DNA from: Haloferula rosea
Lineage (GTDB): Bacteria > Verrucomicrobiota > Verrucomicrobiia > Verrucomicrobiales > Akkermansiaceae
Length of the DNA: 64,000 nt
Assembly (NCBI RefSeq): GCF_016595525.1
Contig: NZ_JAENII010000010.1
Coordinates: 124,001 to 188,000 of the forward strand
Reading direction: 5' to 3'
Positions 16,300 to 44,855 of the stretch are shown in pieces. Position 1 is the stretch's first letter; the number at the start of each line of letters is the position of its first letter. Below the pieces are notes generated by a model that worked only from the letters and a program-made list of their open reading frames with translations, made no database searches and had not been told where the DNA came from. Position numbers and translations under genes: made by a program.

Positions 16300-16326
16300 C
16301 GTTCTAATTTCGGTGGTTTGCCTTCA

Positions 16327-17832
16327 TCATTTTCCATCCTTGTCCGTCAGCCAGCCCAGTGATCTTCGAACCGCCTTGTTCCAGTTCGCCCGCTTCTCCG
16401 CCACCTGGTCCGGAGGCATCCGCGGTTCGAAGACCCGATCCACCTTCCAGTTGGCCACGAGTTCGTCCACCGAGCCCCAGAACCCTGTCGCCAACCCAGC
16501 GAGATAGGCTGCCCCCAACGCCGTGGTTTCGACCATCGTCGGCCGCACGATGGGCATCTGGAGCACATCGGACTGGAACTGCAGCAGGATCTCATCACGA
16601 GTCGCACCACCGTCCACCCGCAGCTCGGGAATGGGGGCATCCGCATCAGCCACCATGGCATCCAGCAGATCCGCGCTTTGGAAGGCCATCGATTCCACGG
16701 CAGCGCGGGCAATGTGGGCCGAGGTCGTGCCGCGTGTCAGACCGAATATCGTCCCCCTCGCATACTGGTCCCAATGGGGAGCTCCCAGCCCCGCGAAGGC
16801 CGGCACGAAATACACCCCTCCGGAATCCGCCACCGACCCCGCAAGACCCTGGATATCGGCGGACTTCTCGATCATTTTCAGTCCGTCCCGCAACCACTGG
16901 ACCACCGCCCCACCGACGAACACACTTCCCTCAAGGGCGTAGGTCATCTTCCCGTCGAACTGCCACGCGATCGTGCTGAGCAGGCGGTGGGACGACTTCC
17001 GGGGTTGGTCACCGCTGTTCATCAACATGAAGCAACCCGTCCCATAGGTATTCTTCACGTTACCAGGCTCATGACAGAGTTGCCCGAACAGAGCGGCATT
17101 CTGATCCCCTGCCATCCCGGCGATCGGGACACCGCGGCACGCCAGCCCGGCGGAGACCTCACCGTAGACCTCGCTGGAAGAACGAACTTCGGGAAGCATC
17201 GACGCAGGAACCCTGAACACTTTCATCAAGTCTTCGTCCCAAGCACAGGTCTCGATGTTGTATAACATGGTCCGGGCTGCATTGGAAGCATCCGTCACGT
17301 GGACCGATCCCCCCGTCAGCCTGTAGACCAACCAACAATCGATGGTCCCGAAGGCCAATTCCCCCCGCTCCGCCCGTGCCCGTGCGCCCTCGACGTGATC
17401 GAGGATCCACTCGATCTTGCTGCCTGCGAAATAGGCATCCGGCACAAGCCCCGTCCGACGGGTGATCAACGCTTCTCCCTCGCCGCCCTTCAACCGGTCG
17501 ATGCGTTCGGAGGTCCGCCGGTCCTGCCACACGATGGCACGATGGATCGGCCGCCCGGTCGATCGATCCCAGACCACCGTGGTTTCCCTCTGGTTGGTGA
17601 TGCCAATCGCGGCAATGTCGTCCGCAGAAATTCCGGCATTCGACATCACCTCGTCGGCAACTCCGGACTGGGATGCCCATATTTCCTCCGCATCATGCTC
17701 GACCCAACCCGGCTGTGGAAAAATCTGTTCGAACTCCCGTTGCGCGATACCTCGGATCTCTCCCTCTCGGTTGAAAAGGATTGCTCTGGAACTGGTCGTC
17801 CCTTGGTCGAATGACAGGATGAATCGGCTCAT
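16327..17832 (-). CDS. glpK: glycerol kinase
   Basis: A 501-residue FGGY-family kinase that phosphorylates glycerol to glycerol 3-phosphate. The start at 17832 places the phosphate-binding motif [11 protein letters not shown] near residue 7; an upstream in-frame start would add twelve unrelated residues. Other marks are [17 protein letters not shown], the [15 protein letters not shown] segment, [27 protein letters not shown] and the C-terminal [16 protein letters not shown]. These are characteristic of GlpK rather than xylulose or gluconate kinases. It leads the glpK-glpD operon and is preceded on the same strand by a methyltransferase gene ending at 17888. Confidence 0.97.
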
Positions 17833-22828: not shown

Positions 22829-23887
22829 ATGAAAACCCCTCCTTCCTGGCATTCTCCGCTTACCCGTCTCGGCGTGATCCTCGCCCTACTCCTCAGCCCA
22901 CCTCTCTCCGCGGCTCCGGCGGACTCAAACTCGCTTCCTGATCCGGACGGCAAACCCGCGGACATGAGCAAACCCGTTAAGGTCTTCATCCTGATGGGGC
23001 AGTCGAACATGCTCGGATTCGGCACGGTCGCCGGGAACAAGGAGGGTACTCTGGAACACGCCACCAAAGCAGGGAAATATCCCTTTCTCATCAATGACGA
23101 CGGTGCCTGGACCACCCGCATGGATGTCCGGAACGTGCGGGTGATGAATTTCAAGGATCACAAGAACGACTGGCTCACCGCGGACAAGACCGGGAGAATC
23201 GGTCCCGAAATCGGTATCGGCTGGCATCTTGGGGAGCACTTCGACGAGCCCGTCCTGGTCCTCAAGTCATGCATTGGAAACCGCAGTCTCGGATGGGACC
23301 TGCTCCCCCCCGGCAGCAAGGCCTACGAACACGACGGCAAGCTGCAACCCGGCTATGGTGAGACCCCGGAAACCGCCGGCAGCGGCGAGAAATACGAAGG
23401 CAAGGAATGGTACGCCGGCAAACAATGGGATACCGACATCGCAAGCGCACGGCAGGTGCTGGAGAACCTCGAAAAATACTATCCCGGAGCGAAGGGATAC
23501 GAAATCGCCGGGTTTGCATTCTGGCAAGGTGACAAAGACCGCTACAATGCCGCCCACGCCGCGACCTACGAAAAGAACCTGGTCCAGTTCATCAAGGCGC
23601 TGCGCAAGGAGTTCAATGCACCGAACGCCAAGTTCGTCTGCGCGACCCTCGGTCAAACCGAGAAGGGAGCAACCGGCAAGGAGGGAGAGATCCTCAATGC
23701 CCAGCTTTCCGTGGATGGCAGCGCGGGCAAGTACCCGGAATTCAAGGGGAACGTCGCCAGCGTCTATGCTCACCCTCTTTCAAAAGGGGGAGCCTCGAAT
23801 GGTCACTATGGCAAGAACGCCGAGACCTACATGAACATCGGCCTCGCCATGGGTGAAGCACTCGTCGGACTCTACGAGGACGAATGA
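22829..23887 (+). CDS. SASA-domain carbohydrate esterase (sialate O-acetylesterase-like)
   Basis: A 352-residue secreted SGNH-type esterase with a signal peptide (LGVILALLLSPPLSAAPA). The nucleophile block is FILMGQSNMLGFG, with Ser in GQSNM. The conserved block AGFAFWQGDKDR follows. The C-terminal SNGHYGKNAETYMNIG may supply the catalytic His. These features match SASA/DUF303 proteins such as CE6-type acetyl xylan esterases and sialate O-acetylesterases, which remove acetyl groups from glycans. It is alone on the plus strand here. Convergent with the oxidoreductase gene that ends at 23955. Confidence 0.9.
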   Translation: MKTPPSWHSPLTRLGVILALLLSPPLSAAPADSNSLPDPDGKPADMSKPVKVFILMGQSNMLGFGTVAGNKEGTLEHATKAGKYPFLINDDGAWTTRMDVRNVRVMNFKDHKNDWLTADKTGRIGPEIGIGWHLGEHFDEPVLVLKSCIGNRSLGWDLLPPGSKAYEHDGKLQPGYGETPETAGSGEKYEGKEWYAGKQWDTDIASARQVLENLEKYYPGAKGYEIAGFAFWQGDKDRYNAAHAATYEKNLVQFIKALRKEFNAPNAKFVCATLGQTEKGATGKEGEILNAQLSVDGSAGKYPEFKGNVASVYAHPLSKGGASNGHYGKNAETYMNIGLAMGEALVGLYEDE

Positions 23888-25477: not shown

Positions 25478-26593
25478 ATGACGCGCCGCATCCTCATCGC
25501 CCCCGACAAGTTCAAGGGCTCTCTCACCGCCATCGAAGCCGCCAACTCGATTGCAGAGGGGGTGCGCCGGATCGACCCACTGGCCGAATTCGATCTGTGC
25601 CCGATTGCAGATGGAGGCGAGGGATTCATGGAAGCCGTGGCCAAGGCCATGAAGGCCGACTGGGTCCACTGCGAAGCGGTCGATGCTCTGGGACGTCCCA
25701 TCAACAGCCGCTACGTGCTTGCCGGTTCCTCTGGCGAAAGGATTGCCGTGCTGGAGATGGCGGAAACCGCAGGTCTTTGGCGATTGCACCCGTCCGAGTA
25801 CAATCCGTTGAAGGCCACCACACGCGGCGTCGGCATGCAGATGGCCCACGCCATCCTTCAGCACTCGGTGGACCGGATCATCCTCGGTCTCGGAGGCAGC
25901 GCCACCAATGACGCCGGCTGCGGCATGGCATCGGCACTTGGCGTGAGGTTCCTCGACCATGCCGACCGCGAACTCGGTCCCATTCCTTCGGATCTTCAGA
26001 ACCTTGCCAACATCGATGCGGACTCCATCATCGGACTCCCCGCCATCACGGCGGCCTGCGATGTCGACAACCCGCTACTCGGCCCTCGTGGGGCCACCTC
26101 GGTTTTCTCAGCCCAAAAGGGTGCCGACCCGCCGATGAAGCAAAACTTGGAACGAAGCATCACTCGCCTGGTAGAGGCAGGAGGCGCGTCCGACATCGCA
26201 GCATGCCCCGGCGCCGGTGCCGCAGGTGGGCTCGGCTTCGGGCTGATGTTCTTCGCCGGGGCACGACTTGTGTCCGGCTTCGACCTCCTCGCCGACCTTC
26301 TCCATCTCGACTCACGCATCCAGGCAGCGGACCATGTCATCACCGGAGAGGGATCGATCGACCACCAGAGCCTCTCGGGCAAAGGTCCGGTCGGCCTCGC
26401 TCGGATGGCACGCAAGCGCCACAAACCCGTCACCGCATTCTGCGGCATCGCCGATCAGGCGGCGCGCGACAGCGGTGAGTTCGACGGACTGCACGCCCTC
26501 ACTTCGAGCGGACTCCCCCTCAAACAGTTGATAGAACAAGCCGCGCCCCTGCTTATCGACCTCGTTGCCAACTCAGATACCCTCGAACCATGA
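25478..26593 (+). CDS. glycerate kinase (GlxK/GarK type)
   Basis: A 371-residue class II-type glycerate 2-kinase, which phosphorylates glycerate with ATP to give 2-phosphoglycerate. The start ILIAPDKFKGSLTAIEAA is the family hallmark, followed by CPIADGGEGFMEAV. Later motifs are ALGRPINSRYVL, IILGLGGSATNDAGCGMASALG, AACDVDNPLLGPRGATSVFSAQKGA and HVITGEGSIDHQSLSGKGPVG. It should be cytoplasmic and feed glycerate into lower glycolysis. Its stop overlaps the cupin start (ATGA at 26590-26593), so the two are coupled. An AraC regulator on the other strand follows the cupin. Confidence 0.95.
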   Translation: MTRRILIAPDKFKGSLTAIEAANSIAEGVRRIDPLAEFDLCPIADGGEGFMEAVAKAMKADWVHCEAVDALGRPINSRYVLAGSSGERIAVLEMAETAGLWRLHPSEYNPLKATTRGVGMQMAHAILQHSVDRIILGLGGSATNDAGCGMASALGVRFLDHADRELGPIPSDLQNLANIDADSIIGLPAITAACDVDNPLLGPRGATSVFSAQKGADPPMKQNLERSITRLVEAGGASDIAACPGAGAAGGLGFGLMFFAGARLVSGFDLLADLLHLDSRIQAADHVITGEGSIDHQSLSGKGPVGLARMARKRHKPVTAFCGIADQAARDSGEFDGLHALTSSGLPLKQLIEQAAPLLIDLVANSDTLEP

Positions 26594-27000
26594 AAAAGTC
26601 CCCGTTCATCACCGAAGCCGATGCCATCAAGGAAGACTTCGAAGGCCGCACCAATTACTGGATGTGCCGTCCTGAGATCACCAATGCCAAGGACCTCCAA
26701 GTTTGCCGCGCCGTCCTCCCACCTGGAAAAGGACATGATTTCCACCGCCATCCAGAGAACGAAGAAGCAATCTACGTCCTCGAAGGAGAGATCGAACAAT
26801 GGGTTGGAGAGCAATCCCAACGGATCAAGAAGGGCGAATGCGCCCACATCCCCGCGGATGTCGTTCATGCGTCTTTCAACCGGAGCGATCAGGATGCGGT
26901 CATCCTTGCCATCCTTTCGCCGGGATCCCAGAAGGGGCCATTGGCCGTCGACATGTTCGAGGAGGAGCCTTGGGCATCGATCCGACAGTCCAAGGCCTGA
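26590..27000 (+). CDS. cupin-domain protein coupled to glycerate kinase
   Basis: A 136-residue single-cupin protein. The first cupin motif is GHDFHRHPENEEAIYVLEGEIEQWVG, with two His and a Glu positioned for metal binding. The second is GECAHIPADVVHASFN with the expected His. It starts within the glycerate kinase stop (ATGA), so expression is translationally coupled. Small cupins of this type act as isomerases, epimerases or metabolite sensors; the context suggests a role in sugar-acid or glycerate metabolism, but that is inference. It converges with the AraC gene, which stops 5 bases away. Confidence 0.9.
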   Translation: MKKSPFITEADAIKEDFEGRTNYWMCRPEITNAKDLQVCRAVLPPGKGHDFHRHPENEEAIYVLEGEIEQWVGEQSQRIKKGECAHIPADVVHASFNRSDQDAVILAILSPGSQKGPLAVDMFEEEPWASIRQSKA

Positions 27001-27005
27001 CTCGC

Positions 27006-27887
27006 TCAATCCCGAAATGCAGACGGTCGACACCCGATCCACTTGAGGAAGGTGTTCGAGAAACTCGTCACACTCTCAAAGCCGACCTGACGGGCCACCG
27101 CCTCGATCTTGTCATTCGAGGTCGAGAGGATCTCGCGCGCACGCTGGAGCCGCAGATGGGTCAGGTGCTGCATCGGGCTACGCCCCAACTCCTTGTGGCA
27201 CATCCGACGCAGATGCTCTCCACTGACAAAGGCGATCCTGGCGAGGCCATCGAGCGTCCAATCCGCGGCAAGGTCGACTTCGACCTTCCGCCACACCCGC
27301 CAAAGACGTTCATCGGTGGTGTGCGGCTGTGCAAAGCGGAGCACGTATTGATGAATCAATTCCGCCCAATGATGGAGCGCCGGCAGGCTGGACTCACCCA
27401 GGCATTCCGCCCGCAATCCCTCAACGGCGGCCTTCAAGGGAAGACCATTGAAGCAGCCGGAGACCGGTGACACCGCGGTCACGATCGGTCGGGTGTCGCG
27501 CGACTCCGCATAGCGGACCCACACAAACGACCACGACTTTCCGGGCAGGCACTTGAAGGCATTCGTCACGAACGGGGGCAGCAAACAAGCCTGCCCCGCG
27601 CCGATCCGCTTCCATCGGCCATCGGCGAGCACCACTCCCTCCCCCTCGATGCACGCCAGCATGTAGGTCCCGCTCTGATGACCTCGGACAATCTCGGTGG
27701 ACGGACGGGCCAGCATCAAGCCACAGTGCGCGATCCCATGTTGAGCCAGGAGCGGGCACTCGGGCTCCCCCCTCATCCACTCGGTCACCTCATACTCACC
27801 GCAAAGCACCGCCGCCAATCTGCTCCCGGGCCCGAGAGTCTCACGGTCCACTTTCGACTCAGATTCCGGTAAATCCCTCCCTGCCAT
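27006..27887 (-). CDS. AraC-family transcriptional regulator
   Basis: A 293-residue regulator. The start at 27887 is chosen because residues before it in the longer frame look unrelated. The N-terminal part (residues 40-150) is a cupin-like sensor half with GTYMLACIEGEGVVLADGRWKRIGAGQACLLPPFV. The C-terminal 100 residues hold the two helix-turn-helix motifs: LDGLARIAFVSGEHLRRMCHKELG and IEAVARQVGFESVTSFSNTFLKWIGCRPSAFR. It is divergent from the TIM-barrel/Tm-1-like operon starting at 28025 and probably controls it. Its sensor likely binds a sugar or related metabolite. It also faces the glycerate kinase-cupin pair tail to tail. Confidence 0.93.
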   Translation of the reverse strand: MAGRDLPESESKVDRETLGPGSRLAAVLCGEYEVTEWMRGEPECPLLAQHGIAHCGLMLARPSTEIVRGHQSGTYMLACIEGEGVVLADGRWKRIGAGQACLLPPFVTNAFKCLPGKSWSFVWVRYAESRDTRPIVTAVSPVSGCFNGLPLKAAVEGLRAECLGESSLPALHHWAELIHQYVLRFAQPHTTDERLWRVWRKVEVDLAADWTLDGLARIAFVSGEHLRRMCHKELGRSPMQHLTHLRLQRAREILSTSNDKIEAVARQVGFESVTSFSNTFLKWIGCRPSAFRD

Positions 27888-28024
27888 GCAGGCTCTACCA
27901 TACCCTCCCAGTCCCACCCGTCGAGCCACACCTCACCCAACCATGTGGATTTTCGATAAGTTCTCGTGGGAGCGATTCGTCTTCCTCCCTCGACCGCTGG
28001 AGCTCCCGACCCTATTCCTCAGGG
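27888..28024. promoter_or_regulatory. divergent promoter region between AraC gene and Tm-1-like operon
   Basis: The 137 bases should hold the promoter of the three-gene operon and that of the AraC gene. A relatively AT-rich stretch occurs at 27950-27965 (TTTTCGATAAGTTC). I see no clear direct repeats that would mark AraC half-sites, so the role is assigned from gene arrangement only. Confidence 0.4.
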
Positions 28025-28888
28025 ATGCCGAATCCATGGACCGGGAGAGGAAATCCCTACACACGCACCGAAGTCATCGAACGATTCAACGACACCCTGT
28101 CGAAGGGTGAGGCGATCATCGTCGCCGGAGCTGGCTCCGGAATCAGCGCCAAATTCATCGAAAAAGGCGGTGCCGACATGATCATCATCTACAACTCCGG
28201 ACGCTTCCGGATGATGGGTCACGGCTCCACCGCCGGCTTGATGGCGTATGGCGACGCCAATGCCATCGCCATGGAAATCGGTGAATACGAAGTGCTTCCC
28301 GTGGTCGACGAAATCCCGGTCATCTGTGGCGTCCATGCCACGGACCCACGCCGCCGCATGTGGCACTGGCTCGGCAAGGTGAAGGAGATGGGGTTTTCCG
28401 GAATCAACAACTTCCCCACCCACAGCATCGTCGACGGACACTTCCGCGGCGTGCTTGAGGAAACCGGAATGAGCGTCGAGAAGGAATTCGAAGCCGTCGG
28501 GCTTGCCCACAAGATGGACATGTTCTCCATCGTCTACGTCGGGTCGCCCGAGGAAGCTGCCAAGATGGCCGAGCAAGGGGCGGATGCCATCATCGCCCAC
28601 GTCGGCACCACCGTCGGCGGCTCCATCGGCGTGCGCGATGCCGTCGTTTCATGGGAAGACACCATCGCCCAAACCCAGGCCATCATCGATGCCGCCAAAG
28701 CCGTGCGCGACGACATCTTCTATCTCTGCCACGGCGGGCCCATCAACACCCCGGAGGATGCCGACCGCGTGATCCAGGCGACCGACTGCGTCGGGTTCGT
28801 CGGAGCATCCAGCCTCGAGCGGATGGCGGTCGAGGAGTCCCTCACGAACCTGACACGCCAGTTCAAGTCCATCACCATCAACCGCTGA
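28025..28888 (+). CDS. PEP hydrolase-like TIM-barrel protein (C-terminal half of Tm-1-type proteins)
   Basis: A 287-residue TIM-barrel of the Pfam family named PEP hydrolase-like or TIM-barrel signal transduction protein. Marks include GEAIIVAGAGSGISAKFIEKGGADMIIIYNSGR, LPVVDEIPVICGVHATDP, GFSGINNFPT, MDMFSIVYVGSPEEAAKMAEQGADAIIAHVG and the glycine-rich LCHGGPINTPEDADRVI. In plant and fungal Tm-1 proteins this domain is fused to a UPF0261 domain; here the UPF0261 protein is the next gene, 12 bases downstream. The biochemical role is unknown: the barrel resembles PEP mutase/isocitrate lyase folds, which act on C-C or C-P bonds next to carboxylates. Cytoplasmic. Confidence 0.9.
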   Translation: MPNPWTGRGNPYTRTEVIERFNDTLSKGEAIIVAGAGSGISAKFIEKGGADMIIIYNSGRFRMMGHGSTAGLMAYGDANAIAMEIGEYEVLPVVDEIPVICGVHATDPRRRMWHWLGKVKEMGFSGINNFPTHSIVDGHFRGVLEETGMSVEKEFEAVGLAHKMDMFSIVYVGSPEEAAKMAEQGADAIIAHVGTTVGGSIGVRDAVVSWEDTIAQTQAIIDAAKAVRDDIFYLCHGGPINTPEDADRVIQATDCVGFVGASSLERMAVEESLTNLTRQFKSITINR

Positions 28889-28900
28889 TCCACAGTCACC

Positions 28901-30118
28901 ATGGCCACCATCGCTGTCCTCGGAACTCTCGACACCAAAGGCGAAGAACACCAGTTCGTCGCCGAACTGATCCGCGCTCGCGGGCACGACGTGGTCCTCA
29001 TCGATGTCGGGACGGGTGCGCCCCCGACCCACAAACCCGACTTCACCCGTCACGATGTGGCGACAGCGGGAGGGAAGGATCTCGACGCCCTGATGGCGAA
29101 ACAGGACCGCGGAAGCTGTGTGGTCGCCATGAGCGAAGCCGCCCCGATCTTCCTCGCCTCACTGGCGGAACAAGGCCGCATCGACGGCGTCGTCTCGCTC
29201 GGCGGCGGCGGCGGCACCGCCATTGGCACGGCCGCCATGCGTGGGCTTCCCATCGGCTTTCCCAAGCTCATGGTTTCCACACTGGCAGCAGGCAACACCG
29301 CCCCCTACCTCGGCACCAAGGACATCGTCATGATGCCAAGCATCGCCGATGTCGCCGGCCTCAATCGCCTTTCGCGCACCATCTTCTCACGCGCTGCAGG
29401 AGCCATCTGCGGCATGGTCGAGGCCGAACTCGACGACAACGCCACCAAACCCCTGATCGTTGCAAGCATGTTCGGCAACACCACCACCTGCGTGACCGAA
29501 GCCAAGCGCCTCCTCGAAGAACAGGGCTACGAAGTCCTCGTCTTCGCCGCGACCGGCGCCGGTGGCAGGGCGATGGAGTCGCTGATTGAAAGCGGCATGG
29601 TTTCCGGCGTGCTCGACCTCACCACCACCGAACTCGCCGACGAACTCGCCGGCGGCGTCCTCACCGCCGGCCCCGATCGCCTTGAGGCAGCTGCCAAGGC
29701 CGGCATTCCGACAGTCATCGGTCCCGGCTGTCTCGACATGGTCAATTTCGGGGAAATGGACAGCGTCCCTTCGAAGTACGATGGGCGTCGTTTCTACATC
29801 CACAATCCACAGGTCACCCTGATGAGGACCACACCCGGGGAATGCGCCGAACTCGGCAAGATCCTTGCTGACAAGGTGAACCGCTACTCGGCCCCCGCCG
29901 CCGTGATGATTCCCACCAAGGCGATCAGCGTGATCAGCGCTGAAGGACAGCCTTTCCACGACCCGGAGGCCGACGACGCCCTGTTCTCAGCCATCCGCGA
30001 GCAATCAAATGTCGAGATCACCGAACTCGATCACCAGATCAACGACCCGGAATTCGCCCGCGCATGTGCCGACAAGCTACTCAAACTCATTCAAAGCTCA
30101 TCCACCGCCAACCCATGA
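28901..30118 (+). CDS. Tm-1-like ATP-binding protein (UPF0261)
   Basis: A 405-residue UPF0261 protein. The start ATIAVLGTLDTKGEEHQFVAELIRARGHDVVLIDVG is the family signature. The glycine-rich VSLGGGGGTAIGTAAM, KLMVSTLAAGNTAPYLGTKDI and ITTCVTEAKRLLEEQGYEV-like segments follow (here TTTCVTEAKRLLEEQGYEV). The tomato homologue Tm-1 blocks tobamovirus replication, and its N-terminal half binds ATP; the ancestral metabolic role is not known. It is 12 bases after the TIM-barrel gene and overlaps the next start (ATGA at 30115-30118). The layout implies that the TIM-barrel and this protein work together as a two-subunit version of the eukaryotic fusion. Confidence 0.93.
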   Translation: MATIAVLGTLDTKGEEHQFVAELIRARGHDVVLIDVGTGAPPTHKPDFTRHDVATAGGKDLDALMAKQDRGSCVVAMSEAAPIFLASLAEQGRIDGVVSLGGGGGTAIGTAAMRGLPIGFPKLMVSTLAAGNTAPYLGTKDIVMMPSIADVAGLNRLSRTIFSRAAGAICGMVEAELDDNATKPLIVASMFGNTTTCVTEAKRLLEEQGYEVLVFAATGAGGRAMESLIESGMVSGVLDLTTTELADELAGGVLTAGPDRLEAAAKAGIPTVIGPGCLDMVNFGEMDSVPSKYDGRRFYIHNPQVTLMRTTPGECAELGKILADKVNRYSAPAAVMIPTKAISVISAEGQPFHDPEADDALFSAIREQSNVEITELDHQINDPEFARACADKLLKLIQSSSTANP

Positions 30119-33100
30119 TTCGCCACGCCCTTCTTCTCGCCATCCTTTGTGCACTGCAGTGCAACCTCAGCGTGGCGGAGGACGCGCTGCGGGTCTTCAT
30201 CCGCTCCGGCCCCAAAACCCACGGACCCGGAGCTCACGACCATCCAGCCTTCCTCAAGGACTGGACCGCCCTCCTCAACGAACGCGGAGCACGGGCGACC
30301 GGAGGTGACCGGTTTCCCACGGCGGACCAACTGGCGGAAACCGATGTGCTGATCCTTCATGCCAAGGAAGCGGGCAACATCGAGGGAGAGGACCGCAGGA
30401 ATCTTGAAACCTTCCTCAACCGTGGTGGCGGCGTCGTCGCGATCCACGGCGGCACCGTCTCCCGCGACCCCGACTGGTTCAAGTCGGTCATCGGCGGCTC
30501 GTGGCGCTTTGGCCAAACCAAGTGGCTCGAAGGGCCCATGTCGCTCTACTTCACCGACCGCGAAAACCCGATCACCCGCGCTGTGTCGAACTTCGATCTC
30601 GACGATGAGATCTACTACGACCTGGATCTCCTCCCCGAGATCCAGGTCCTCGCCGCCGCCTACACGCCGAAACCCAAGGAGGGTCCGGCCGAAGAAGGGC
30701 AGCCGGTCAACATCTACGACATCCAACCGCAGATATGGACCTACGAAACCAACGATCGCCGCGCCTTCGCCTGCATCCCGGGGCATCGATACAAGAACTT
30801 TTCCCACACCTCCCTTCAGACACTCCTGCTGCGCGGCATCGCCTGGGCGGGGAAGATGGAGGATCCAAACGCCCTTCTCTCCAACAAGGAGGCCCTTGAT
30901 GACGCCCTGCGCTACCCGGTGGGCGGACCGACGCGACCCGAGGAAGCCGCGGACAAGATCGAACTTCATCCGGAGTTCGACCTTTCCCTTGTCGCCGCCG
31001 AACCGCTGATCAACAAGGCCATGAACCTCGACTGGGATGGTCAGGGACGCATGTGGGTTGTCGAGAGTCCGGAATACCCCAACGGCCTTCGCAAGGCGAA
31101 TACCGAGATCTGGAAGGACTCCGGATCCGTGGAACCCGGTGAATATGATCGAGATCCACTCGACCGCATCAGCATCCTGACCGACACCGATGGCGACGGA
31201 CGGATGGACAGGAAGCATGTCTTTGCCGACAAGCTCGAGCTCGCAACCGGCTTCGTTTTTCACAACAACGGCGTCATCGTTTCTGCCGCCCCGGACATCT
31301 GGTTCCTCGAGGACACCGATGGCGACGAAGTGGCCGACAAGCGCACAAGACTCTACACTGGCCTCGGCACGCGCGACACCCATGCGGTGATCAATAATCT
31401 CCGTTGGGGACTCGACGGCTGGATCTACGCGACCCACGGCTACTCCGCCGGGAAGGTCAAGCCGCTCGGCGCCCCCGAGCTTCCCGAAGTCGGAATCGGA
31501 TCGGGAGTGCTTCGCTTCAAGCCCGACGGGACGCGCATCGAGATGTATTCCAGCAAGGGTGGCAATACGTGGGGCCTCGACATGACGGCCGACGGCCGCT
31601 GCTTCTGGACCCAACCTACCAGTGGCACCGTACTTTTCCACACCGTCCTGCCCGAGTACGTTCTGGAGAAGGGGAAGATCCCCGGCACCAACAGCTTCCA
31701 CGGGATGATCGTTCGTCAACCCACCTTCCCCCTTCTGACCTGGGAACAGGCCGCCTACCGCCAGATCGATCTCGTCGGCTCCTACACCGCCGCCGCCGGC
31801 TGCGCGATCTATCAGGGCGGAGCATGGCCGGAGAAGTGGAACGACAGCTACTTCACCGGCGAACCCACCATCAACCTCGTCAGCCAGTATTTCCTCCGGC
31901 CCAATGGAGTCACCTACACTGCCGACAAGGAGCAAGGGAGAGAGAAGACCGAGTTCATCCGCAGCAGCGATCTTTGGTTCCGGCCGATTGAGACACGCGT
32001 CGGCCCCGATGGTGCCCTCTACGTGATCGATTTCTACAACCAGGCCGTCATTCACAATGACACCCGTGGCCCCCGTCACGGTCCGGCCAATGCCGCCATC
32101 CGGCCCGACCGGGACCACTACTTCGGCCGCATCTGGAGGGTGCAGCACAAGCAGGCCAAAACCGTGACGCTTCCCGCCCTCGACAAGGAGGACACCGACG
32201 GCCTCACCAAGGCGCTCGACCATCCGAATGCCCACACCCGCATGAGCGCGCACCGCCTGCTTCGTGAAGCGGGCAAGCCGGTGGCTGCGGCGGCCGGTTC
32301 CTCCCCCCTCGAAGCCTACCGAGAGTTCAGCGAAACAACCGATGCCGCCCGTCGCGATGCCCTGCTCAATGCATTCGCCGGAGCCGAGGACGACTGGACT
32401 CGTTCCGCGCTGATTGCGGCCGCTTCCTCCGCCCCCACCGAGTACATTCTCGCCGCACTGAACTCGCCATCACCGGATCCACTCGCTCCGTTGGTCGAGA
32501 ATCTCCTGCCGTCTGCGCTGAAGGCCGATCCATCCTCCACGGCGACGAATCTGGTCGTCGCCTCCGCTTCCGCCCCGCAGGCGTCAACCGCACTCAAGGT
32601 CATCATCCTGCAGGCGCTCTCCACCAACAAGAAGGTGCAGCCACCCCTGACGAAGCCACTGACGGATTCACTCGGCGCCTTGCTCGGCGACGCCCAGACC
32701 GCGTCCACCGCACTGCCCCTGATCGCACGATGGGATCGAAATGGCAGCATGAAGGAAACCGTGGACGGACAGGTCGACAAGCTGGCGAAAAAGCTGACCG
32801 ACACGACCGCGGATGCCAAACAGCGCCTCGACGCCGCCCGGGCTTTGATTGCCGTCGGAGAGGAAACGGCGATCGCGGCCACAATGGTGACCCTGCAAGA
32901 CCCCAACACCCCTGAATCCATCCGACTCGGCATTCTTTCCAAGCTCGGGGAAACCGCCCACGCCACCCGCCTTGCACCAATCTTCAGCCAACTCGATCCG
33001 GCACTACAGAATGCCGCCTTCGACGCCATCGTCGCCCACCCCGCCGCCGCCCTTGCCCTGTTGCAGGCCGTTGAAGGAGGCAAGGTCGAACCGGCTGACA

Positions 33101-34986
33101 TCGGTCCGGGCAACATCGCACGCCTCCGCAACCATCCCGACCGGATGGTATCGGACAAGGCCGAGTCGATGGTGGAGAAACTGGTCCCGGGCATGAAGAA
33201 GACCCGGGAACTGATCGCTCAGTTCCTGCCGGAGGTGCGCAAACCGGGTGATATCGCCAACGGCAAGTTGATGTTCGCGGCCGCGTGCGCGATCTGCCAC
33301 AAATACGATGACCTTGGTACTTCCGACGTCGGCCCGACCCTCAACGGCATGGGTTCCCACGGACCGGAGGAACTCTTGACCCACATCATCGACCCGAACC
33401 GCGAGGTCGATCCCAGCTACTGGCAGTGGAACATCACCACAAAGGACGGTCGCTCGCTTGCCGGCGTGATCACTTCCGAGAACGCCACCTCGTTGACCCT
33501 TCGGAGCCAGGCCGGGGACACCGAGCTCAAGAAGGATGACATCGCCCAGCGGGAAAACACGCAGCGCTCCCTCATGCCGGAGGGACTCGGTGGTCTCGGC
33601 CCGGAGGTCCTCCGCGACATCCTTGCCTACATGACATCCACGGATGCCGGTCGCTACCGGGTCATCGACCTTCGTGAAGCCTACACGGCCGATGCCCGTC
33701 GCGGGCTCTTCGCCGACGTGAAAGCCACGCGCGACAGTGTGTTCTTCCGGAAGTTCGGCCACGTCGATCTCGAAGGGGTCCCCTTCTTTCTCATGGATCC
33801 CGCCAAGAGCCCGAACGGCCGGAGCCTCGTCGTCCTGAAGGGAGGTCAGCCCGGAAACGTCGCCCGGACTTACCCGAAAAAGGTGGAGATCCCCACCGAC
33901 ATCGAAGCTTCTCGACTCTACCTCGTCAGCGGGGTCGCCGGTTGGGGTTTCCCGGCCATCGGCGATGAAAGGGTGGCCCTCAAGGTCACCCTCACCCACC
34001 AGGATGGCACGACCGAAAGCACGGAGTTCCTCAATAAGGTCCACTTCGGCGACTACAACCGCGTCATCAATGTGCCTGGCTCGAAGTTGCTCAAGGGGTG
34101 GGTCAAGGCAGGGCAGATCCGCATGCTCACCGTCGACATCAAGAAGCCGGGAACCATTCGTCAGATCACCCTTGAGAGCGCGGACAACAGGATCTCCCCC
34201 GTCATCGCAGCCATCACCGCCGACCTTTCAAACGAACCCGCGGAAATTTCCACAGCAGCAGCCGCCCACGGTACAACTCGACGCGACCTTGCCAATCTGC
34301 CCCCCAACAGCACTGCTGCCACCGGCCAGAGATTTGTCGAGCCCCGGAAAGCCGATTCCCTTCGGGTTCTGCTCGTCGGTGCCGGGCAGGCCCACCATTT
34401 CCCTCGGGACTTCATCGCCACTGATCGCGGGACGCTCTCCCGGATCAAGCACGCCGATGTCATCGGCACCATGAACCTCGACGAAGCCCTCGCCGCCATG
34501 CCGCTCGCCGACGTGCTTGTTTTCAGCGGAAATCACGACCAGTGGGGCAGCGAGCGCTTCCAACGGGCATTGCACGACTTCGCCGACAGCGGCAAAGGGA
34601 TGGTCATGCTTCATGCCGCCACCTGGTCGCACCCTTGGAAGGGATACAACGAGCGCTTCGTTTCGGGGCGTACGACCGAACATGGCAAGGGCGAGTTTGA
34701 CGTGACAATCAAGAGACCCCGTCATCCGATCGCCTCAAAGGTGAAGCCGAAGTTCACGATCTGGGACGAGAACTATCGCTTCCGATTCAAGGACGGATCC
34801 AAGCATCAACTCCTCGCCGTGAATGAGCCCGACAAGACCAAGGGCCCCATTCCCAGCGTGTGGATCGTCAACGACCCGAAGACCCGTATCGTGTGCATCA
34901 CCCTCGGCCACGACCAGCGCGCCCATTCCCATCCGGACTTCAAGCAACTGCTGATCAACTCGGTGAAATGGGTGGGCGGATCCTGA
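30115..34986 (+). CDS. exported ThuA - PVC dehydrogenase propeller - HEAT - cytochrome c - ThuA fusion protein
   Basis: A 1623-residue secreted multidomain protein; the start at 30115 gives a signal peptide (IRHALLLAILCALQCNLSVA) and overlaps the previous stop. In order: ThuA-like domain (about 24-255), beta-propeller of the PVC membrane-bound dehydrogenase type (about 289-680; FDLSLVAAEPLINKAMNLDWDGQGR, FVFHNNGVIV), Ala-rich HEAT-like helices (about 690-1040), and a cytochrome c with Cys1058-Ala-Ile-Cys-His1062 and a probable axial Met1154. A beta-rich domain (about 1180-1390) and a second ThuA-like domain (about 1415-1620) close it. The propeller may be a sugar or alcohol dehydrogenase passing electrons to the heme. 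ThuA-type proteins are linked to 3-keto-trehalose metabolism. Two ThuA domains in one chain are unusual. Confidence 0.92.
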   Translation: MIRHALLLAILCALQCNLSVAEDALRVFIRSGPKTHGPGAHDHPAFLKDWTALLNERGARATGGDRFPTADQLAETDVLILHAKEAGNIEGEDRRNLETFLNRGGGVVAIHGGTVSRDPDWFKSVIGGSWRFGQTKWLEGPMSLYFTDRENPITRAVSNFDLDDEIYYDLDLLPEIQVLAAAYTPKPKEGPAEEGQPVNIYDIQPQIWTYETNDRRAFACIPGHRYKNFSHTSLQTLLLRGIAWAGKMEDPNALLSNKEALDDALRYPVGGPTRPEEAADKIELHPEFDLSLVAAEPLINKAMNLDWDGQGRMWVVESPEYPNGLRKANTEIWKDSGSVEPGEYDRDPLDRISILTDTDGDGRMDRKHVFADKLELATGFVFHNNGVIVSAAPDIWFLEDTDGDEVADKRTRLYTGLGTRDTHAVINNLRWGLDGWIYATHGYSAGKVKPLGAPELPEVGIGSGVLRFKPDGTRIEMYSSKGGNTWGLDMTADGRCFWTQPTSGTVLFHTVLPEYVLEKGKIPGTNSFHGMIVRQPTFPLLTWEQAAYRQIDLVGSYTAAAGCAIYQGGAWPEKWNDSYFTGEPTINLVSQYFLRPNGVTYTADKEQGREKTEFIRSSDLWFRPIETRVGPDGALYVIDFYNQAVIHNDTRGPRHGPANAAIRPDRDHYFGRIWRVQHKQAKTVTLPALDKEDTDGLTKALDHPNAHTRMSAHRLLREAGKPVAAAAGSSPLEAYREFSETTDAARRDALLNAFAGAEDDWTRSALIAAASSAPTEYILAALNSPSPDPLAPLVENLLPSALKADPSSTATNLVVASASAPQASTALKVIILQALSTNKKVQPPLTKPLTDSLGALLGDAQTASTALPLIARWDRNGSMKETVDGQVDKLAKKLTDTTADAKQRLDAARALIAVGEETAIAATMVTLQDPNTPESIRLGILSKLGETAHATRLAPIFSQLDPALQNAAFDAIVAHPAAALALLQAVEGGKVEPADIGPGNIARLRNHPDRMVSDKAESMVEKLVPGMKKTRELIAQFLPEVRKPGDIANGKLMFAAACAICHKYDDLGTSDVGPTLNGMGSHGPEELLTHIIDPNREVDPSYWQWNITTKDGRSLAGVITSENATSLTLRSQAGDTELKKDDIAQRENTQRSLMPEGLGGLGPEVLRDILAYMTSTDAGRYRVIDLREAYTADARRGLFADVKATRDSVFFRKFGHVDLEGVPFFLMDPAKSPNGRSLVVLKGGQPGNVARTYPKKVEIPTDIEASRLYLVSGVAGWGFPAIGDERVALKVTLTHQDGTTESTEFLNKVHFGDYNRVINVPGSKLLKGWVKAGQIRMLTVDIKKPGTIRQITLESADNRISPVIAAITADLSNEPAEISTAAAAHGTTRRDLANLPPNSTAATGQRFVEPRKADSLRVLLVGAGQAHHFPRDFIATDRGTLSRIKHADVIGTMNLDEALAAMPLADVLVFSGNHDQWGSERFQRALHDFADSGKGMVMLHAATWSHPWKGYNERFVSGRTTEHGKGEFDVTIKRPRHPIASKVKPKFTIWDENYRFRFKDGSKHQLLAVNEPDKTKGPIPSVWIVNDPKTRIVCITLGHDQRAHSHPDFKQLLINSVKWVGGS

Positions 34987-35839: not shown

Positions 35840-37222
35840 TCATTCCACCAAGCGATACAGCCGCAACATCGAGGGCTCAGGATACGGGGGCTTGCGGCGC
35901 TTGTCCTGATGCGCTCCGAGCGACTCCCACTGCAGGACGTAGCGCACTCCTTGCGCATCCGAGCCAGCCTGATCCGTGGCGCGGCGGATCTGCATTCCTG
36001 GGAAGTCGCTTTCCACTTCACCAAGCTGGGAAGGCAACGCCTTCGTGACTTCGAAAGGTCCTTCCAAAGGTCGGAGGCTTTCCTCGTCAAAGAACAAGCG
36101 TCCACTGCCGAGGACGCGGTGCTGATAGGATAGAGTCAGGACTCCGGGTTCCGCCTCCATCGCTTCGCTGGCCCGAATCCCGATGAAATTCATCGAGCCA
36201 TTGCCACTGAACTCGATCGGATCATTCCACTCGGTCAGCTGTTGGATCTTCCAGCCCTTCCCTTCAGGACGGGCCACATACATCTGCATGTTCCCCTCGG
36301 CGTCTGATTTGTGGTAGGTGACCAACGGACGCTTCTTCTTGTCAAAGAACAGCTTGGCGCCGCCATTGATGATGCCACCTCCAACCGGGATGGGATCGAT
36401 CAAGAGGAAGTCATCTTCAAAGGTGATGGGCAACTCGACCTTCCGCCCGCCGCTTGACTCCCAGGCGATGAGGTCGCGGCTACGGGCATGGGAAAGATGG
36501 TGATTGGTCGCACAGTCGGGAGTCATCCGCCACACCCAGACCATGTGGAACCAGCCATCGGGCCCACGAACCGGGCCGAGCGGATACGCGTTCCGCTGCC
36601 CTTCCCCGTCAAGCAGCGGAGTGTCGAGCAAGCGGGCCCAACTCTTCGTTTCAGGATCGAACCTGTTGAACAACCGGGCACCCCGCCCGGAGCCACCGTC
36701 GCGGTAGTTGAACACCAATTTCCCCTCATGGTCGTTCATGAATCTGGGATACGTCACACGTTCCTCCCGCTCACCCGTCATGGCCCCGGGTTTCAGGCTC
36801 GAGATGTCGCCGGGCCTTGAGGTCACGAAATACACCAGCGGATCCGCGTGCATGTTCCCCGCCACATGAAGGTTTCCAAGGCGATCGATGGCCATGGTGA
36901 TGTAGTTGTGGGAGTCCCATCCTACCTTCGAGGGAAGCGTTTGGTAATGCCACTCGCTTGAATCCAGTGACCGCATCGCCACCGTCATCCTGCGTTGATC
37001 GTCGTAGTAAGCCACATACTGCGAATTCGAACCTTCATCAGTCACCAAGGAGAACCCGACCCGGAAATCAGAAACAACCCGACCGATCTCCAAGGTCTCC
37101 ACCACCTTGAACCGTGCGGCATGAACCATGGCACCACCAAGCGTCAGGACGAGCGCCCCAAGCCGCACGAAATTGGTCCAGCGACCGCAGGAGAAGGTGG
37201 AGTGGAGACGATCAGATGCCAT
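35840..37222 (-). CDS. secreted BNR-4 repeat propeller protein
   Basis: A 460-residue protein. The ATG at 37222 has a strong Shine-Dalgarno sequence (GGAGGT) nine bases upstream and gives a signal peptide ending near MVHAA; a second ATG at 37258 also has a GGGAG and remains possible. The mature part is a beta-propeller of the BNR_4 type, with the typical DSHNYITMAIDRLGNLHVAGNMHADPLVYFVTS and LVFNYRDGGSGRGARLFNRFD segments. Some members of this fold are polysaccharide lyases (ulvan lyases among them), so a role in glycan cleavage is possible; I cannot confirm catalytic residues. Divergent from a DUF1080 gene. Confidence 0.88.
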   Translation of the reverse strand: MASDRLHSTFSCGRWTNFVRLGALVLTLGGAMVHAARFKVVETLEIGRVVSDFRVGFSLVTDEGSNSQYVAYYDDQRRMTVAMRSLDSSEWHYQTLPSKVGWDSHNYITMAIDRLGNLHVAGNMHADPLVYFVTSRPGDISSLKPGAMTGEREERVTYPRFMNDHEGKLVFNYRDGGSGRGARLFNRFDPETKSWARLLDTPLLDGEGQRNAYPLGPVRGPDGWFHMVWVWRMTPDCATNHHLSHARSRDLIAWESSGGRKVELPITFEDDFLLIDPIPVGGGIINGGAKLFFDKKKRPLVTYHKSDAEGNMQMYVARPEGKGWKIQQLTEWNDPIEFSGNGSMNFIGIRASEAMEAEPGVLTLSYQHRVLGSGRLFFDEESLRPLEGPFEVTKALPSQLGEVESDFPGMQIRRATDQAGSDAQGVRYVLQWESLGAHQDKRRKPPYPEPSMLRLYRLVE

Positions 37223-37495
37223 GCCACTACTACCTCCGCGGACGACGCCCTGTTTCATTGGGTTTGCTCCCGGCCCAACCCATCACGGAGGGAATTGGAA
37301 AGCTCACTCGCTTGCCCCCGATTCCCCCCCGGCCATAGGCAGCTCCCTCCGGATACGCCCCAGACAATACGCGCTCCTGACGTGGGATTGCGACATGCTT
37401 GAAATATCAGACACCACCAACAACGTTTCTGGACAACTGCGTGGACGGTTTTCCGCTCGCTCCATCGCCAACCAGCAATTCGAATCCTTCCCACC
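37223..37495. promoter_or_regulatory. divergent intergenic region
   Basis: The 273 bases between the divergent BNR-4 and DUF1080 genes carry the BNR-4 gene's Shine-Dalgarno sequence (GGAGGT on the minus strand near 37232-37237). I see no convincing promoter boxes or repeats elsewhere. Confidence 0.4.
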
Positions 37496-38071
37496 ATGAA
37501 AACCCTTATCAGTCTCATTCTCACCATGGGCATACTCCACGCCGCCCCGGAAGCCATCTTCAACGGCAAGGATCTGACCGGTTGGAAGGTGGAGGGTGCG
37601 GAATACTGGACGGCCAAGGATGGCGTGCTGATCGGGCAAAGTGACGCAAAAAAGAAGCACTCGAACCTCTGGACCGAGAAACAATTCACCGACTTCACGC
37701 TCAAGGCAGAATTTCGTTATGAGGGCCGCATGGATTCCGGCGTCTTCGTCCGGGCATTCAACGACCAGATCCAGCTCGGCATCTCGTCCTCCCTGCAACG
37801 AGACATGACCTGCTCTCCCTACATCGCCTCCCTCGGCAAATACCCGGTGGAAGCCAAGGGCGTCGACAAACTCCTCAAGGAGGGTGATTGGAATCGTTTG
37901 AGCATCACCGCCAAGGGGCCGCGCTACGTCGTCTCTCTCAACGGCAAGCAGGTTCTCGACTACACTTCGGGCACCGCCAAGGAAAAGGGCCCGATCGGAC
38001 TCCAGGTCCATCAGGGGTTCGACATGAGAATCGAGTTCCGCAACATCACCGTGGAAGCCATCGGTGACTGA
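37496..38071 (+). CDS. DUF1080 (3-keto-disaccharide hydrolase domain) secreted protein
   Basis: A 191-residue secreted protein with a short signal (KTLISLILTMGILHAAP) and one DUF1080 domain. It opens with AIFNGKDLTGWKVEGAEYWTAKDGVLIG and continues with FTLKAEFRYEGRMDSGVFVR. The closing strands read GPIGLQVHQGFDMRIEFRNITVEAI. It is the shortest of the three DUF1080 proteins in the window. Divergent from the BNR-4 gene, and tail to tail with the LURP-one-like gene, three bases apart. Likely periplasmic and acting on keto-glycosides by family knowledge; substrate unknown. Confidence 0.9.
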   Translation: MKTLISLILTMGILHAAPEAIFNGKDLTGWKVEGAEYWTAKDGVLIGQSDAKKKHSNLWTEKQFTDFTLKAEFRYEGRMDSGVFVRAFNDQIQLGISSSLQRDMTCSPYIASLGKYPVEAKGVDKLLKEGDWNRLSITAKGPRYVVSLNGKQVLDYTSGTAKEKGPIGLQVHQGFDMRIEFRNITVEAIGD

Positions 38072-44069: not shown

Positions 44070-44855
44070 TCACTCCAGCGGTTGAAGCTCGATCTTGCGA
44101 AACCACACCGGCTGACCTTCGGCCTGAAGCGCGATGTGCCCGAACTCCAACTTCAGGGGAGCCCCCGCCTTGAGCAGGGACTCCGCTGACTCGACACCAT
44201 GCTCAGGGTCGAGTTGGGGTTTTTGATATCGAAGCACCTCCTTGCCGTTCACGCGGTGGATCACCTCATCATGACCACGGACTTCAATCTCCACCGAGAC
44301 CCACTCGTCGGCTGGAAAAGTCGGTGCCGTCGACTGCACGATGTGCTGGGTCACCAGCTTTCCGTCGATCTCAAGGTTCGTCCCCGGCGTGCAGACATTG
44401 CCGGTGGCACGCTTCCCCTTGCCCTCGTCCGCAAGGAACTGGAACTCCAGGCTGACCGGGAATGACTGGTTCAGACCCATGCTCAGGGGTGACTGCGAGT
44501 GGATCATGAAACCGCTGTTCAGATTCACGTAGTGAGGTGCGTCCGACATCATCGTGCCGGCAAAACGGTATTCCATCCGGAGCCGGTAGCGGGAGTAGGC
44601 AAGGTTGCTGTACAAGTGGCCATACTGCCCGTCGAACTTGTCGTAGTCCTCGTACGAGACCTTCAGGATTCCATCCTCCACGCGGAAGGTATCGAAGGGA
44701 TTCGCTCCCACCGGGTGCTTGGCAAACTTCGGCGTCCAACCACTCAAGTCCTTGCCGTTGAAGAGTTCGATCCACGGCTTCTCCTGAGCAAACGCTGCAC
44801 AGGACCAGACAGCAACCACGAGCGCGATGAATCGAGGGGCGAAACAAAATTTCAT
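44070..44855 (-). CDS. DUF1080 secreted protein
   Basis: A 261-residue protein with a signal peptide ending near SCAAFAQ; the ATG at 44855 is chosen because residues before it are unrelated. The DUF1080 domain opens WIELFNGKDLSGWTPKF and includes YSNLAYSRYRLRMEYRF, a loop with HYVNLNSGFMIHSQ, and LKLEFGHIALQAEGQPVWFRKIELQPL at the end. It is the third DUF1080 protein of the window. Six-base inverted-repeat arms GGAGTT/AACTCC lie directly before its start (44860-44876). It converges with the mscS gene. Confidence 0.9.
   Translation of the reverse strand: MKFCFAPRFIALVVAVWSCAAFAQEKPWIELFNGKDLSGWTPKFAKHPVGANPFDTFRVEDGILKVSYEDYDKFDGQYGHLYSNLAYSRYRLRMEYRFAGTMMSDAPHYVNLNSGFMIHSQSPLSMGLNQSFPVSLEFQFLADEGKGKRATGNVCTPGTNLEIDGKLVTQHIVQSTAPTFPADEWVSVEIEVRGHDEVIHRVNGKEVLRYQKPQLDPEHGVESAESLLKAGAPLKLEFGHIALQAEGQPVWFRKIELQPLE

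Follow-up and report, generated by a model that had tools for sequence, protein, structure and literature searches.

In Haloferula rosea, the two halves of Tm-1, a plant virus-resistance protein, are encoded by separate genes, adjacent to one that encodes a large exported heme protein; these genes tend to co-occur in relatives, which points to a breakdown pathway. The locus lies in a 64,000-nucleotide stretch of contig NZ_JAENII010000010.1, referred to below as the window. We read it, with a probability of roughly 0.4, as one variant of a catabolic module found, in varying gene order, in Verrucomicrobiota, in which a glycoside or sugar would be oxidized by an exported heme-linked protein, a kinase and a lyase would act inside the cell and glycerate would provide the exit. 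The gene module across relatives is well supported; what was observed directly is the order of the genes, the domains they encode and their tendency to co-occur and cluster, and the substrate and reactions are inferred. The genes are as follows.

25478..26593, + strand: glycerate kinase (PF02595, TIGR00045)
26590..27000, + strand: small cupin (PF07883), overlapping the glycerate kinase gene by 4 bases (spacing -4)
27006..27929, - strand: AraC-family regulator (PF12833), divergent from TBST
28025..28888, + strand: TBST, a PEP_hydrolase-like TIM barrel (PF09370, 346 bits)
28901..30118, + strand: UPF0261 protein, homologue of the Tm-1 N-terminal half (PF06792 and PF23189)
30115..34986, + strand: large exported ThuA - DUF7133/TIGR02604 - cytochrome c (CAICH) - ThuA protein, 1623 aa

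All the genes named in the first-pass annotation are present, in the order and with the overlaps that it gave. TBST and the UPF0261 gene are separated by 12 bases, and the latter overlaps the large gene by 4 bases, the ATGA being readable directly in the DNA. The divergent regulator that it proposed is likewise there, its gene 95 bases from TBST and tail to tail with the cupin gene, 5 bases away.

The TBST protein matches PF09370 over its full length (positions 1-267 of 267). Its predicted model (pLDDT 84.4) superimposes on PDB 2P10 (Z 35.6, 46% identity), with 268 residues aligned at 1.8 A. This entry, Mll9387 of Mesorhizobium, belongs to the same family, and its title gives just ‘putative phosphonopyruvate hydrolase’. 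The next fold matches are of the PEP mutase/methylisocitrate lyase type, with Z 17-19 for the PEP mutase/isocitrate lyase superfamily, although indole-glycerol phosphate synthases and other barrels reach 17-18.5 too. The model suggests a TIM barrel resembling PEP mutase-type lyases, with conserved phosphate-site loops.

The UPF0261 protein contains both domains of its family, PF06792 (216.5 bits) and PF23189 (302.8 bits; cut-off 27 for each), and is closer to Tm-1 (3wry, 290 bits) than to PDB 9MPY (233 bits, residues 6-389). The latter is Saro_1862 of Novosphingobium aromaticivorans, a member of the same family whose entry title gives bound acetovanillone. The accessible part of PMC13101465 describes MarK, from the same species, as a single-component kinase that opens acetovanillone catabolism; MarK is presumably Saro_1862. 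Because of this structure and the acetovanillone kinase reported in that species, the window protein is probably an ATP-dependent kinase. Outside its own family its fold matches are UDP-GlcNAc 2-epimerases (Z about 12, across a single domain), a likeness that was not taken as a function. HpeHI and AcvAB were considered as UPF0261 kinases and rejected: according to PMC12167813, in which the terms ‘UPF0261’ and ‘Tm-1’ do not occur, HpeHI has ATP-grasp and swivel domains.

Plant Tm-1 is a single chain with UPF0261 at its N-terminus, whereas the window has two genes with TBST first, sharing a bacterial operon with the gene for an exported heme protein; a virus-related function is not expected of them. 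According to the available text of PMC5028733, which terms the N-terminal UPF0261 domain of Tm-1 uncharacterized, the TBST family forms the C-terminal half, and single proteins with both domains are found mainly in charophytes and land plants, the genes being generally separate in bacteria, archaea and fungi. The first-pass statement that the two domains are one protein in plants and fungi is therefore right for plants but not for fungi.

The large protein carries ThuA (PF06283) at both ends and matches DUF7133 (457 bits). It exceeds the cut-offs of TIGR02604 (272.1 versus 122.2 bits) and TIGR02603 (107.8 versus 68.15 bits) and has a single CxxCH motif, CAICH, at residue 1058, and so qualifies as a PVC-type heme-binding protein. 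Judged by eye, its N-terminus is signal-peptide-like. The architecture first assigned to it, ThuA-propeller-HEAT-cytochrome c-ThuA, is borne out in its terminal ThuA domains and its CxxCH motif but not in its HEAT segment: no HEAT family was found in it at E 0.001 in a Pfam scan, HEAT_2 being matched in related proteins only. Near full-length matches exist in three other families, at 55% (G051), 59% (G035) and 62% (G053) identity. The verrucomicrobial protein Lac161_ORF7 also combines TIGR02604 and cytochrome c domains, with HEAT; in the accessible part of PMC5342196 it is reported as a lactose-hydrolysing enzyme on the basis of a glucose assay, and ThuA, TBST and UPF0261 are not mentioned for it there. 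Planctomycete-specific cytochrome c gene families, which may not be the TIGR02604/TIGR02603 families, have functions described as wholly unknown in the available part of PMC5615132. A literature search of one library found no publication treating PVC-heme and ThuA domains together.

Across 57 related genomes, which are not independent of one another, UPF0261 and TBST are either both present (37) or both absent (20) and never occur singly. The cupin and the ThuA-PVC protein both have matches in 23 genomes, each is matched alone in one and neither in 32; for each of them 23 of its 24 genomes fall within the UPF0261/TBST set. E-value limits of 1e-40, 1e-12 and 1e-100 were our own choice. A TBST fragment of 46 positions in one genome (G022) was excluded; each genome contributed one or two locations matching the large protein, additional fragments of those genes being left out, and misses are possible as at most nine candidates per genome were scored. 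In a tree-based test of independent pairs, a mean of 3.0 pairs spoke for and 0.1 against association, which is not significant (median p 0.25). Among genomes with both genes, and with counts lowered by broken contigs, TBST lies within 8 kb of UPF0261 in 24/37, of AraC in 18/28, of the cupin in 10/23 and of ThuA-PVC in 7/23; the cupin and ThuA-PVC lie within 8 kb of each other in 12/23. As to tightness of linkage, the non-significant pair test, the 13/37 genomes that have no UPF0261 within 8 kb of TBST and the fact that ThuA-PVC is matched this close to UPF0261 in only 3/23 genomes all count against it.

Neighbourhoods were compared between 57 UPF0261 loci with a linked TBST and 32 without. Six duplicate loci were dropped and 24 outside Verrucomicrobiota and Planctomycetota excluded, one Hydrogenedentota locus (L138) being kept; a Luteolibacter locus (L101) was counted as unlinked because its TBST is on the opposite strand. 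Neighbours were tagged with purpose-built profiles, some tags being checked against Pfam. A PVC-heme gene is found no more than 6 kb from UPF0261 in 33/57 linked versus 3/32 unlinked loci, and an AraC gene within 3.5 kb in 30/57 versus 4/32. Restricted to loci with enough flank, the PVC comparison is 21/39 versus 2/18 (p 0.0031) and that for Dabb 11/39 versus 1/18 (p 0.08). ThuA alone is borderline (16/57 versus 3/32, p 0.058), and sulfatase genes show no enrichment (14/57 versus 8/32). For cupins, a poor combined profile (16 domain hits from 37 input sequences) gave 6/57 versus 2/32 (p 0.71), after which they were searched singly. The first-pass annotation would have regarded the linkage as incidental if ThuA-heme or AraC neighbours were rare; PVC-heme and AraC neighbours are frequent, and with the nested presence across genomes this argues that the linkage is not incidental.

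Related cupins occur near TBST or UPF0261 in Verrucomicrobiota, one planctomycete, alphaproteobacteria and haloarchaea, and the arrangements vary: AraC / TBST-ThuAPVC-cupin-MFS (G053), TBST-cupin-MFS (G035), TBST-cupin-ThuAPVC / AraC (G037) and cupin-TBST-PVC~cytochrome c (G044). The Luteolibacter locus has GlyK-cupin-TBST-ThuA-ThuA~PVC on one strand with UPF0261 adjoining, for which reason the convergent glycerate kinase-cupin pair of the window probably belongs to the module. Two genus-mates (G013 and G014), with ThuA-GlyK-cupin adjoining ThuA~PVC, further strengthen this earlier suggestion. Glycerate kinase matches were found in 38/57 genomes and adjoin a cupin in 3. The combination of galactarate dehydratase equivalog and glycerate kinase that marks the Gar pathway is not seen here: no GD_AH match was found among the subset of window ORFs scanned, and the GD_AH proteins of two relatives score 365 and 394 bits against an equivalog cut-off of 731. 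In a second type of TBST-UPF0261 operon (L066), an LsrF-type thiolase (428.9 bits; NCBIfam cut-off 297) is encoded immediately 3' of UPF0261, a pointer to phospho-chemistry; its protein cluster is also represented in another locus (L067).

A chemical parallel is with LacABC plus DUF1080 systems acting on 3-ketoglycosides, in which oxidation is extracytoplasmic, as proposed for the window. A DUF1080 protein has been proposed as a 3'-ketolactose hydrolase (PMC9007349, in the part available). DUF1080 (‘3-keto-disaccharide hydrolase’, PF06439) lies within 6 kb of UPF0261 in 24/57 linked loci, and an Opitutae locus (L081) has both a GMC oxidoreductase and Gluconate_2-dh3. The window operon differs in having ThuA and PVC-heme modules: a Pfam scan of the six proteins encoded between 25478 and 34986 found no GMC, Gluconate_2-dh3 or DUF1080, so the operon lacks the defining trio, the nearest DUF1080 found being at 37496-38071, past two opposite-strand genes.

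The module would comprise an AraC-type switch, the exported ThuA/PVC-heme oxidoreductase, the cupin, a UPF0261 kinase and a TBST lyase or hydrolase, with glycerate kinase in some genomes. The exported protein would bind and oxidize a glycoside or sugar, passing electrons out via its c-type heme, and its ThuA domains may handle the keto product. A small product would then be imported, perhaps by an MFS transporter of the kind encoded directly after the cupin in two relatives (G053 and G035). Inside, by precedent within its family, UPF0261 would phosphorylate this product with ATP, the PEP mutase-like TBST barrel would cleave or hydrolyse its phosphorylated form, and glycerate kinase would convert a resulting three-carbon acid to 2-phosphoglycerate.

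The acetovanillone bound in 9MPY and the kinase MarK invite another route, in which the exported protein deglycosylates a phenolic glycoside of plant origin, UPF0261 phosphorylates the phenol, TBST acts on the phospho-aromatic and glycerate kinase serves the sugar side. Among 12 plasmid records examined of 343 with UPF0261, two UPF0261 genes do lie in 15 kb stretches with homoprotocatechuate genes (hpaR and hpaE in one, hpaD in the other), but neither has a TBST neighbour. The window protein is nearer to Tm-1 than to 9MPY, and inspection of TBST-linked loci by eye, a weak test made without profiles, noticed no ring-cleavage or phenol carboxylase genes; we consider this route unlikely. TBST might instead be a sensor that modulates either UPF0261 or transcription on binding a metabolite of the pathway, leaving UPF0261 as sole catalyst of the pair. 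Of the 24 loci outside Verrucomicrobiota and Planctomycetota, 11 indeed have TBST in one frame with a DNA-binding domain of the AraC type (checked with Pfam in L120), and in L117 and L154 it is fused to sigma-54 activator domains. In those 11 loci, however, a second, free TBST follows UPF0261, and therefore the sensor and the free protein are distinct; the free form has 74 invariant residues across 40 sequences and a fold common to lyases and mutases, making a purely sensory role improbable.

That common PVC-heme and ThuA genes lie by chance beside an unrelated conserved pair is suggested by the abundance of TIGR02604 stretches (25 in the window genome, 19-39 in each of ten relatives) and by the phylogeny-aware pair test. 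Against this stand the excess of PVC-heme genes at linked loci, the near one-to-one occurrence of cupin and ThuA-PVC nested within the UPF0261/TBST set and the recurrence of the genes together in differing orders, and we regard chance as very improbable.

On the catabolic-module reading, Tm-1-type domains gain a testable pathway in a module of five to six genes, among them those for a regulator, an exported oxidase and possibly an exit enzyme. It is conceivable, if on balance doubtful, that the ancestral job of Tm-1 was that of a kinase-lyase pair acting on oxidized sugar fragments, which Verrucomicrobiota couple to an exported ThuA/PVC-heme oxidase, alongside a cupin and glycerate kinase, in an undescribed pathway from extracellular glycoside to 2-phosphoglycerate, and that plants kept as a fused pair and reused against virus. 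If the module reading is true, it would provide a physiological role for one subgroup of PVC-type heme proteins.

A conserved gene module that includes UPF0261 and the TIM-barrel protein TBST exists in the relatives of Haloferula rosea within the Verrucomicrobiota. The window's own proteins were matched against 57 whole genomes (cupin at E <=1e-12, the large exported ThuA–PVC-heme protein at E <=1e-100). UPF0261 and TBST occur together in 37 genomes and are both absent from 20, leaving out a 46-position TBST fragment in genome G022. Cupin and large-protein matches were each found in 24/57 genomes, 23 of them common to both, and UPF0261/TBST are present in 23 of the 24 genomes of either set; the exception, G038, is an assembly 83% complete. 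TBST lies within 8 kb of UPF0261 in 24/37 genomes having both, of AraC in 18/28, of the cupin in 10/23 and of the large protein in 7/23. The large protein is as close to the cupin in 12/23 and to AraC in 13/23, and to UPF0261 in only 3/23. By simple arithmetic (16 kb out of some 5 Mb), two genes would come this close by chance with a probability below 1% in any one genome. Clustering so far above chance, together with shared presence across the 57 genomes, argues that the module is real. UPF0261 is found near TBST more often than near the other module genes, and TBST, AraC and the cupin look like the hub.

In the window itself (genome assembly 4.68 Mb, 97.5% complete), all genes of the operon region proved real and lie where the first-pass annotation had placed them, and the only UPF0261 and TBST matches in the whole genome are those of the window. 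The third operon gene, for the large protein, starts within the UPF0261 stop codon (ATGA overlap). From the N- to the C-terminus its product has a signal-peptide-like start, ThuA, DUF7133/TIGR02604, TIGR02603 with one CxxCH heme site, and a second ThuA; no DUF1080 was found within it. A second system elsewhere in the genome (locus L178, 3673-10631) has an AraC paralogue, 51% identical to that of the window, divergent from Dabb and a fused ThuA–DUF1080–PVC–cytochrome c gene. Other genes around the operon are:

14740-17832 (-), FGGY kinase and an adjoining gene resembling glycerol-3-phosphate oxidase, with a probable role in glycerol catabolism
22829-23887 (+), SASA-type esterase, possibly carbohydrate-related
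35840-37258 (-), BNR_4 gene, possibly carbohydrate-related
37496-38071 (+), free-standing DUF1080 gene (PF06439, 3-keto-disaccharide hydrolase), 3' of the operon
44070-44855 (-), a further free-standing DUF1080 gene, 3' of the operon

UPF0261 loci were sampled from the 57 related genomes (38 wider regions among them) and from a genome collection (80 loci), and their neighbours tagged with profiles built from window and neighbour proteins. Removal of six duplicates left 113 loci, window included. The comparison set is the 89 from Verrucomicrobiota, Planctomycetota and one Hydrogenedentota, loci of related genomes being counted as Verrucomicrobiota; in 57 TBST is next door on the same strand (linked) and in 32 it is not. 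The linkage of the pair to PVC-heme and AraC genes, which the first-pass annotation had drawn from the window, is conserved rather than rare: a PVC-heme gene lies <=6 kb from UPF0261 in 33/57 linked versus 3/32 unlinked loci and AraC within 3.5 kb in 30/57 versus 4/32, although related loci are not independent. DUF1080 (24/57 versus 3/32, 6 kb), Dabb (19/57 versus 2/32) and ThuA (16/57 versus 3/32, p 0.058) follow; the cupin profile is alike in the two groups of the 89 loci. On the tree of these loci the combined TBST and PVC label needs 17 changes, 10 of them forced by well-supported branches, and an independent-pair test showed a trend in the expected direction that was not significant. The UPF0261 proteins of loci L082, titled Akkermansia muciniphila, and L081, titled Opitutae, are nearly identical on the tree, so such MAG names look unreliable.

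Gene order varies among related genomes (G) and loci (L):

G053: AraC divergent from TBST, then large protein, cupin, MFS transporter
G035: TBST, cupin, MFS gene related to that of G053, on a single strand
G037: TBST, cupin and large protein share a strand, with AraC on the opposite one
G044: cupin, TBST, fused PVC–cytochrome c
L101 (Luteolibacter pohnpeiensis): glycerate kinase, cupin, TBST, ThuA and fused ThuA–PVC, all co-directional, with UPF0261 some 160 bases away and divergent

Identities of L101 to the window are 58% (glycerate kinase), 69% (cupin), 83% (TBST), 52% (ThuA), 29% (ThuA–PVC), 65% (UPF0261) and 59% (AraC). The glycerate kinase (61-65%) and cupin (74-76%) of G013 and G014 lie 3' of a ThuA gene that shares 49% identity with the first ThuA domain of the window, and a ThuA–PVC gene is divergent. 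The window's glycerate kinase–cupin pair sits on the far side of AraC, and it probably belongs to the system because the pair is joined to module genes in L101, G013 and G014. Glycerate kinase is common in general (38/57 genomes at E 1e-70) and stands beside this cupin in only three. Galactarate/altronate dehydratase-like genes adjoin the ThuA-PVC gene in two genus-mates (L055, 9047-10570; L164, 1330-2856); their products fall far short of the equivalog cut-off for galactarate dehydratase.

That the pair is split and co-evolves had already been described: of 504 bacterial genomes with TBST, 491 carry UPF0261 too (PMC5028733). The first-pass statement that the two are fused in fungi was wrong. 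Two haloarchaea have the order TBST-cupin-UPF0261, and Rhizobium johnstonii has UPF0261-TBST-cupin close to genes for sugar ABC transport, all with cupins matched by that of the window. Among 12 annotated plasmid records examined out of 343 matching, TBST is annotated adjoining UPF0261 or one gene off in eight, and a profile finds it in a ninth (L157). In plasmid loci L156 and L160 UPF0261 has no TBST beside it and is lined up with genes for a HAD hydrolase, two aspartate aminotransferase-family proteins and a phosphotransferase. Of the 24 loci that fall outside the main set, 11 encode, next to UPF0261 and a free TBST, a TBST in one frame with an AraC DNA-binding domain (L120, L121, L125-L129, L133, L139, L140, L142; Pfam-checked in L120), and in L117 and L154 TBST is fused to sigma-54 activator domains (Pfam-checked). 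From these domain arrangements, TBST probably also acts as a ligand sensor in some regulators.

The UPF0261 model (pLDDT 93.8) matches the plant virus-resistance protein Tm-1 at Z 47 over 383 residues (1.6 A). It also matches 9MPY, a Novosphingobium aromaticivorans UPF0261 protein titled with bound acetovanillone, which we infer to be the acetovanillone kinase MarK; by analogy, the family would be kinases. The best match of the TBST model (pLDDT 84.4) is 2P10, followed by a barrel whose title names a conserved phosphate-binding site; PEP mutase/methylisocitrate lyase-type barrels come next, other barrels scoring nearly as high. Invariant residues include HGGP (236-239) and G260-A-S-S263, at the ends of strands 232-237 and 257-260, the last two of the model, which is where barrels of this kind usually have their phosphate site. 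In a second TBST-UPF0261 operon type an LsrF-type thiolase, above the curated cut-off, directly follows UPF0261 (L066, 6280-11028; same protein cluster in L067). An SDR gene is near in both loci and an RPE-family gene in L067, and this gene set fits a phosphorylated keto intermediate. L066 also has a PAS-AraC regulator upstream. This operon type resembles the end of AI-2 processing.

Our literature search found no paper that connects PVC-heme, ThuA, cupin and glycerate kinase genes with UPF0261 and TBST. The module is well supported; the pathway is offered as a hypothesis, with a moderately supported mechanism. DUF1080 carries its hydrolase label in Pfam, and one such protein is proposed as the 3'-ketolactose hydrolase working with LacABC (PMC9007349). 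GMC oxidoreductase and Gluconate_2-dh3 genes adjoin a fused DUF1080–PVC gene in L081, and a verrucomicrobial TIGR02604-HEAT-cytochrome protein is reported to hydrolyse lactose with a Km of 1.8 mM in a glucose-release assay (PMC5342196). Given these three lines of evidence, the likeliest first step would be the oxidation or cleavage of a glycoside outside the cell.
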